Positions 23,324 to 25,231 of a stretch of DNA of 37,514 bases are shown in pieces. The position numbers and the translations under genes are program-made. Under the pieces are notes generated by a model. It did no database searches, was not told where the DNA came from, and saw only the letters and a list, made by a program, of their open reading frames with translations. This stretch comes from a virus, in IMG/VR virus record IMGVR_UViG_3300024895_000004, positions 1 through 37,514 of that record, one strand, 5' to 3'. Position 1 is the first letter of the stretch. Each line of letters opens with the position of its first letter.

Positions 23324-24107
23324 CATGCCAAAAATATCAGGCATCGAAGTCACCTTCACCGCCACTGATCCACACGTTGAGATCAGCGAAAAACTGCAAG
23401 CCCAATACCCGCATCACATGATATTGGTGCAATCAGGAACCTGGCTGCATGCTTTCAACAAATCCGCCTACGCACTACACACGTTAAAGCAATACAAAAT
23501 CAGGCTTGCCGGCCCAGCTAACAAGCCTCACTTGTTGGTTGGTTTTCCAGTCGCCAATTACAAGCAACGCTTATGGCCAATCATGGATGAACACAATATT
23601 TCCTATGTTGTGGTCAATCAAACCGACATCGATGTATGCGAAGCGTCAGCGCCAAGCTACGCATTGGATGCAATCTCGGATGACATCGTGAACCAGGTGA
23701 TTGCGGATCTGATCACCAGCAAGCAGCTGAAAACATCCACCACGGCAAAAGCACTGGCCAATCCGAACACGCAGGATTTCATCTTTAAAACCAAAGCCGG
23801 CGATCTGGATTCAATGCTGCTGCAGGACATCATCAAACTGCCGCGTGACATCCGTGTTACATGGGGAGAAAACGTACGCCAGACCATGCAGCGCATCATG
23901 CGCAACACCTATCTGTACGGCAATGAAGATAACAAACCGCAGCTGCTGAAACAGCTATCCGCTGACGTGGATATGATCCGCCACTATATATGCCAGGCAC
24001 AAGCACTAAACCTATTCAAGATTGCATTCGATCATCGAGTGGGTTTAGTGGTCGAGCTTGGTCGCATCCTGGGCGGCTTGCAACGCGCACAAAGGACAAC
24101 ATCATGA
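23304..24107 (+). CDS. avd: DGR accessory protein: MutS-like domain fused to Avd-like four-helix bundle, 267 aa
   Basis: Residues about 25-110 resemble MutS domain I. They have an ISEKLQAQYPHHMILVQSGT strand-helix start, an FNKSAYALHT helix, then LLVGFPVANYKQRLWPIM and a VVVNQT strand end. Residues about 165-262 look like the DGR Avd bundle: alternating helices ending GLVVELGRILGGLQRAQR, close to the Avd C-terminal ExGRxLGGW pattern. Avd binds the RT and template RNA and is needed for cDNA synthesis. MutS-like (MSL) proteins are known as separate DGR accessories. Start may be 23304, 23310 or 23325. The stop overlaps the methylase ATG, and the template starts 25 bp later. Confidence 0.75.
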   Translation: MKMTKPNMPKISGIEVTFTATDPHVEISEKLQAQYPHHMILVQSGTWLHAFNKSAYALHTLKQYKIRLAGPANKPHLLVGFPVANYKQRLWPIMDEHNISYVVVNQTDIDVCEASAPSYALDAISDDIVNQVIADLITSKQLKTSTTAKALANPNTQDFIFKTKAGDLDSMLLQDIIKLPRDIRVTWGENVRQTMQRIMRNTYLYGNEDNKPQLLKQLSADVDMIRHYICQAQALNLFKIAFDHRVGLVVELGRILGGLQRAQRTTS

Positions 24108-25231
24108 TCGATACAGGGTGCGCTCTGGAAAGTCTGGCAATGCGCTCATCCGGGGCGGCTACTGGAACTCGGACGACAATGCCGGCGTGTTCAATCTCAA
24201 CAACGACTGGCCCGACAACGACAACAACAACGTCGGCTTCCGCTGACCCAACATTACAACACCTAGACGCTGGCCATGCCGCCACGGAAGGATCAATCTT
24301 GGTCGAGAGCATCCCGCAGAAACCTGCAAAAGCAAGGCAACAAGCCAAACCGAAAACCGCAGCAGCGCCTACGGGTGCTGTTGTGGAAAGCGGGAAATTA
24401 AAACGTCCTCTAGTTAGATACCACGGAGGTAAATGGAAGCTTGCTCCTTGGTTAATTTCATTTTTTCCTAAACATAGAATTTATGTTGAGCCTTATGGCG
24501 GTGGAGCATCTGTGTTGCTACGTAAAGATAGAAGCTACGGAGAAATATATAACGATCTTGATAGCGAAATTGTAAACCTATTCAGAGTTGCCAGAGAGGA
24601 TGGGGAGGCGCTGATCCGGGCATGTGAGTTAACTCCGTTTTCGCGTGATGAATTTAATGTTTCTTATCAATCAAGTGGAATTCCATTAGAACAAGCACGA
24701 AGAACTTTAGTGCGATCTTTTATGGGCTTTGGTAGCGCGTCAGTTTCAAAACAAAAAAGTGGATTTAGGGCTAATTCTAATAGATCAGGTACTACGCCAG
24801 CTCATGATTGGGCTAATTACCCAGATGGATTGAAGTTTGTTATTGAAAGACTGCAGGGAGTTGTTATTGAAAACCGCGATGCTATTGATTGTATGAATCA
24901 CCACGATAGCGAAGAAACACTCATGTATGTAGATCCCCCATATGTGCTTAGCACCAGGTACATGGATAACAAAACTCATTGCTACAAGCATGAGTTAAAA
25001 GATGACGATCACTCTCGGCTGGCTGAGTATCTTCAATCAGTTAAAGGCATGGTTATTTTGTCAGGATACCCATGTGAGTTGTATGACGATATTTTGTACA
25101 AAGGGTGGACGCGAATTGAACGCAAGGCGTTTGCTGATGGAGCAAAAGAGCGTATCGAAGTTATTTGGATGAATAAGGCTTGTGCAGACGCGTTAGCCGA
25201 GCAAGAAATACAACAAAGAATGTTTGTATGA
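24104..25231 (+). CDS. dam: DNA adenine methyltransferase (Dam/D12 class) with TR-encoded N-terminus, 375 aa
   Basis: The methylase core starts near residue 100. It has the AdoMet-binding YHGGK (106-110), PYGGGASVLL (130-139) and the catalytic DPPY (277-280) with later ILSGYPCELYDD. It would methylate N6 of adenine in a short site, classically GATC. ATG 24104 overlaps the Avd-like stop (ATGA), so coupled translation would read through the template repeat in another frame, giving a Thr/Ser/Ala-rich extension (residues 10-48 from the TR). No in-frame ATG follows the TR before the core; a GTG at 24383 without a good RBS is the alternative start. The stop overlaps the RT start. Confidence 0.85.
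   Translation: MIDTGCALESLAMRSSGAATGTRTTMPACSISTTTGPTTTTTTSASADPTLQHLDAGHAATEGSILVESIPQKPAKARQQAKPKTAAAPTGAVVESGKLKRPLVRYHGGKWKLAPWLISFFPKHRIYVEPYGGGASVLLRKDRSYGEIYNDLDSEIVNLFRVAREDGEALIRACELTPFSRDEFNVSYQSSGIPLEQARRTLVRSFMGFGSASVSKQKSGFRANSNRSGTTPAHDWANYPDGLKFVIERLQGVVIENRDAIDCMNHHDSEETLMYVDPPYVLSTRYMDNKTHCYKHELKDDDHSRLAEYLQSVKGMVILSGYPCELYDDILYKGWTRIERKAFADGAKERIEVIWMNKACADALAEQEIQQRMFV
24132..24245 (+). repeat. DGR template repeat (TR)
   Basis: A 114-bp segment matching VR1-VR3. Read in the VR frame it encodes Asn-rich sequence with ten AAY codons, plus GAC, TAC and ATC codons (17 mutable codons, 27 adenines between 24139 and 24230), the usual design that lets A-mutation reach many amino acids without stop codons. 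It ends CGTCGGCTTCCGCTG before sequence that diverges from the VR flanks. It lies 25 bp past the Avd-like stop and about 980 bp before the RT. Confidence 0.97.

Follow-up and report, generated by a model that had tools for sequence, protein, structure and literature searches.

Introduction

The template RNA of a diversity-generating retroelement (DGR) is generally described as non-coding (e.g. PMC8867640). In the viral DNA considered here, a single stretch of 37,514 nucleotides termed the window, the template repeat (TR) of a DGR is situated inside an open reading frame that ends in an adenine DNA methyltransferase (Dam), and the locus raises the question of whether one RNA serves both as mutagenic template and as mRNA. 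Overlap of TRs with the open reading frames of DGR reverse transcriptases (RT) was recorded in 2012 from annotation, and separate TR and RT RNAs were proposed in the relevant section of that survey (PMC3521204). The window is examined below together with its relatives, and the possible start codons of Dam are weighed against each other.

The DGR of the window

The TR (~24131-24245, plus strand) is repeated in three VRs on the same strand, each at the 3' end of a target gene: VR1 (18293-18412) in the gene at 17709-18422, VR2 (19073-19192) in the gene at 18483-19202, and VR3 (22773-22892) in the gene at 21964-22902, with identities to the TR of 83%, 86% and 81%, respectively. The mismatches lie at TR adenines in 23/30, 18/28 and 24/32 cases, non-repeat edges of the compared stretch being counted in. 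With most of its TR/VR differences at TR adenines, the DGR of the window is genuine and has adenine-specific TR/VR pairs at the 3' ends of its target genes. The gene carrying VR1 belongs to PF03781 (FGE-sulfatase / C-type-lectin-like fold). The RT (25228-26214, plus strand) is a member of the RVT_1 family (PF00078, E=2.5e-23) and displays RYVDDM and LSSQ in the alignment, the SQ motif being a mark of DGR RTs. Both the RT and the integrase come after Dam.

The Avd-like accessory gene (23304-24107, plus strand) is kept in all close relatives and encodes a C-terminal bAvd-like domain and an extra N-terminal domain. The match to bAvd has E=1.5e-5 and recurs in four members, but its 25.9 bits are below the curated cut-off of 40; the N-terminal domain gives a hint of MutS_I (MutS domain I) at E=0.1 only. 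At 267 aa the protein is about twice the length of BPP-1 Avd. We also note an ORF of 119 aa at 22964-23323, between the VR3 target gene and avd, which overlaps the start of the Avd-like gene and has no Pfam match. The distance from target gene to avd varies among close relatives, and this interval may be a further variable slot beside the one described below.

The reading frame across the template repeat

The frame runs without interruption for 375 codons from the ATG at 24104-24106 (plus strand), which has the Shine-Dalgarno sequence AAAGGA upstream, to the stop at 25229-25231; the TR, a spacer of 150 nt and the methyltransferase all lie within it. A preliminary description of the locus had placed the TR in the Dam frame, the start over the stop of the Avd-like gene as ATGA (24104-24107), and the TR in a frame other than that of the VRs, and in all of this it was correct. 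The leader frame is offset by one base from the frame of the three VRs, the AAC runs of the TR are read as Thr codons, and the in-frame reading is ...ATGTRTTMPACSISTTTGPTTTTTTSASAD. Other points require amendment. The description gave 24104 as the only in-frame ATG ahead of the Dam core outside the TR; an ATG is indeed present there, but a second one at 23990, inside the Avd-like gene, is also in frame, the open frame beginning at 23966. It further predicted an extension of about 40 residues rich in Thr, Ser and Ala, a composition that the leader does have; ~38 residues derive from the TR, but the whole extension ahead of Dam amounts to ~98 residues.

Dam (24398-25231, plus strand) belongs to the D12 class, matching PF02086 (E=4.8e-22) and phrog_56 (E=9.6e-70), and its motifs HGGK, YGGGA and DPPY are intact; homology to D12 methyltransferases starts at ~24404. 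The catalytic domains of orphan phage D12 enzymes (phrog_56, PF02086) are at most 63-65% identical to it, and the free-standing relatives examined mostly have a start codon 1-8 codons ahead of RYHGGKW. In contrast to these, the window Dam has no ATG at that place and continues the frame of the TR leader. The RT that follows has its own ATG, which overlaps the Dam stop as ATGA. Promoter and terminator scans of the plus strand between the TR and Dam found nothing.

Related cassettes

RT relatives gathered from viral contigs and genomes provided ~60 related cassettes, with RTs 59-94% identical and nearly all without Dam. Apart from the window, the arrangement with Dam between TR and RT occurs solely in copies whose Dam protein is identical (L005, L007/L085; L numbers designate loci). 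Automatic parsing gave 58 members that are open through the TR, and L267, which was misparsed in the batch, and L271 were checked by hand.

The frame that begins at the ATG ahead of the TR crosses TR and spacer into the RT in all 58 parsed members as well as in L267 and L271. In 58/58 this ATG overlaps the upstream stop as ATGA, nearly all have an SD-like sequence ahead of it, and it is the sole start common to every member. The preliminary description had named stops between the TR and the downstream core in homologues as the observation that would speak against it; none occurs among the ~60 homologous cassettes. In the other parsed members the RT frame does not extend through the TR; all of these have a cargo in frame, and their RT stands in a different register from the TR. 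In most relatives the slot is empty and the RT, lacking a start of its own, directly follows the spacer; an RT with its own ATG at residue 1 is seen only where a cargo intervenes. In 25/58 there is no ATG, GTG or TTG between the end of the TR and the RT core, and in L273 the TR also contains none, which leaves the pre-TR ATG as the only one.

The spacing is consistent with a maintained frame. The distance from ATG to TR end is 143, 146 or 149, and the distances from TR to RT (145 to 172, also 364, 391 and 397) are all identical modulo 3. On the RT tree the TR-to-RT length changed at least 22 times, each time by a multiple of three. Counts taken over related sequences overstate the number of independent events, and the tree has several open forks. 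The comparison shows a conserved start and a conserved frame. Leu codons preceding an A in the TR are CTC in 93 cases, CTT in 1 and CTG in 0 (L267 set aside as misparsed), unlike the RT genes, in which CTG predominates; the TRs are related to one another, and the bias is weakly suggestive of TR translation.

The cargo slot between spacer and RT

The same comparison shows that the junction of spacer and RT is a site of cargo exchange: the window has Dam there, and relatives have small ORFs, PAPS reductases or methylases of other kinds. TR and spacer of the window are 97-99% identical to those of L225, L223 and L226, with RT genes 82-93% identical; close relatives are almost unaltered up to GGAAAGCGG, and the sequence beyond differs. 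A PAPS-reductase-like enzyme fills the slot in L225 and L228, and a different PAPS reductase does so in L248. L226 carries an N6/N4 DNA methylase, a cargo that recurs in L164, the Methylotenera oryzisoli locus. The insert is a PF05869 Dam in L241 and has an H-NS-like C-terminus in L230, while L227 and L280 contain unknown genes. Six kinds of insert are found among the window and its six nearest relatives on the tree, with the PAPS gene on two branches. The cargos have a G+C content of 38-45%, compared with 49-51% in the avd and RT genes of the window. The in-frame cargos share the frame of the leader. Judged from the cassettes compared, Dam is a passenger and the RT is the usual gene of the leader frame.

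Unrelated small ORFs, each equipped with an SD and an ATG, occupy the slots of L223 (4784-5023), L010 (2024-2245) and L012 (2888-3076) and stand in a different register. The RT frame remains open across all three, giving overlapping genes on the same strand, for which synonymous recoding yields 0.013, 0.025 and 0.033. Frame conservation, the absence of stops and the RT frame that is open across these small ORFs together argue for ribosome entry upstream of the slot.

A structured spacer that stays open

The spacer (24246-24397, plus strand), the 3' part of the DGR RNA, ends at the conserved GGAAAGCGG. RNAalifold analysis of an alignment of 51 sequences predicts 37 pairs, 22 of them with double compensatory changes, as in a DGR with a structured spacer; an Rfam search gave no match. 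GACC at the TR end (24245-24248) pairs with GGTC (24301-24304) in 51/51 sequences (columns 5-8 with 67-70), and this pairing is invariant and hence without covariation. Hairpin 1 (24261-24292) has covarying pairs and a length of 30, 33 or 36, or of 29 or 32 with compensation. Hairpin 2 (24316-24327), of 11, 14 or 20, or 12 or 15 when compensated, also covaries, with one pair changed on both sides in 19 sequences. The strongest covariation is found in hairpin 4 (24357-24386), where one pair is changed on both sides in up to 31 sequences. The structured RNA as a whole measures 137, 140, 143, 146 or 152, every value being 2 modulo 3 in 51/51 sequences, cargo loci included; the few single-base loop indels are offset within the spacer, as in the clade of the window (32 and 12) and likewise in L245 and L248.

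The leader frame through the spacer is free of stops in 51/51 sequences. Expectation was set by shuffles in which the RNA columns and pairs were retained, which controls for the structural constraint: stops would then occur in 13.5 of the 51 sequences, and 0/2000 shuffles had as few as observed. Of the other two frames, that of the VRs carries stops in 51/51 and the third in 36/51. Codon-position rates were set aside here, where RNA structure dominates.

These results bear on a reading in which the frame is open merely because RNA structure forbids stops, with nothing translated ahead of the RT or cargo core. The RNA constraint on the spacer is strong, and in BPP-1 too, where an ATG of its own is available to brt, the frame is open through TR and spacer (chance ~0.2). 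Structure alone does not, however, account for the shortage of stops relative to the structure-preserving shuffles, nor for loop indels in multiples of three, an RT frame left uninterrupted by unrelated small-ORF inserts, or the 25 relatives without any other ATG, GTG or TTG, and we consider this reading most improbable. As a covarying structured RNA with an open frame, the spacer would be template flank and coding sequence at once.

Where translation may begin

An in-frame TTG at 24299, which the preliminary description did not mention, has a good Shine-Dalgarno sequence (GGAAGG, 6 nt spacing) and surpasses the GTG at 24383. Dam might begin here, after the TR, leaving the upstream frame as a relic of the family. 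The SD energy at this spacing is -5.7, compared with -5.3 for ATG 24104, and the TTG is in frame throughout the clade of the window and in L013. In most relatives, however, a 1-nt loop indel puts it out of frame, hence it is not the start of the family; the pre-TR ATG and the open TR are retained in the clade of the window too, and the cargo locus L248 has no start between the TR and the conserved region of its enzyme. Initiation of Dam at 24299 is accordingly judged unlikely. The GTG at 24383, also in frame in the clade of the window, is the weakest of the rival starts, and the family comparison favors the other option that the preliminary description had offered, namely one RNA acting as mutagenic template and as mRNA from 24104.

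Translation could instead begin at the first ATG on the edge of the TR, at 24140, a start that would still take ribosomes through the greater part of the TR. Many relatives have the SD-like GGAAGG (-6.2) ahead of this codon, but in the window the SD is weak (-3.3), and the codon itself is missing in L278, L268 and L273. The pre-TR ATG, on the other hand, is present in every member, at a distance from the TR that shifts by 3 only; a start at 24140 is therefore very doubtful. Initiation at codons such as ATT, CTG or ATA, or inside the RT, is conceivable.

By reference to the family, Dam of the window likely starts at ATG 24104, and we think it probable that the DGR template RNA is bifunctional, serving as mutagenic template and as an mRNA translated from that position.

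Leader peptide and proposed mechanism

An AlphaFold2 prediction (L273 with 27 members) gives pLDDT <50 for residues 1-97, and the RT is folded from about residue 100. A single RNA motif is translated as LGRE in most members and as LVES in the clade of the window. Because the same motif is read in both ways, the leader peptide itself seems unimportant, and what is retained would be the passage of the ribosome.

In the mechanism that we propose, translation of avd would end at the TGA within ATGA and the ribosome would restart on the overlapping ATG at 24104, a start whose use we infer from its conservation. It would then traverse the TR and the folded spacer, producing a disordered leader of ~98 residues, and continue into whichever gene follows in frame. 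In this phage, Dam without an ATG of its own would have taken over the leader (24104-25231), the RT restarting at a second ATGA (25228); the phage DNA is presumably methylated by Dam. The same RNA, bound by Avd and RT, would provide template and primer region for self-primed mutagenic cDNA, as in BPP-1. Template use and translation are presumably mutually exclusive, and exclusion between a ribosome and an RT on the TR might, speculatively, amount to feedback. As a tentative extension, to which we give somewhat less than even weight, translation could compete with template use so that RT synthesis and template use are co-regulated, while the junction captures genes without starts, perhaps in a second, distant lineage as well.

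If the TR is translated, template use and RT synthesis would be coupled in cis, many DGR RTs probably carry a wrongly annotated start codon, and TR swaps in engineered DGRs would alter the N-terminus of the RT or destroy it. The cargo slot also illustrates a route by which phages acquire DNA-modification genes that lack a start codon.

Relation to known systems

A literature search limited to papers available without subscription found none on tests of TR translation or on a cargo slot. The 2012 survey describes TRs inside the RT reading frame (DiGReF group 3), the arrangement of the relatives without cargo here, and its relevant section contains no test of translation, frame conservation or cargo (PMC3521204). 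The window differs from that overlap in that Dam separates TR and RT.

The DGR of Bordetella phage BPP-1 (NC_005357) shares the order avd-TR-spacer-brt, and its spacer of 144 nt, similar in length to the structured RNA of 137-152 nt in the window family, folds, recruits RT-Avd and primes cDNA (PMC12875486). It differs in that an annotated ATG downstream of the spacer begins brt, the avd stop is a TAA that overlaps no ATG, and no cargo is present between spacer and RT. The brt frame of BPP-1 (L298, ~2743-3441, minus strand) is open for 699 nt upstream of the annotated ATG, through spacer and TR, and uses the same TR register as the window. Taken as a control, this open frame is within chance over TR and spacer (~0.2).

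A distant DGR group (L046, L053, L059, L061, L063, L064, L067, L073 and others), with an RT ~32% identical, likewise has the TR inside the RT frame, and in L046 and L064 (RT at 4001 in each) the stretch between TR and RT core is free of ATG, GTG and TTG.
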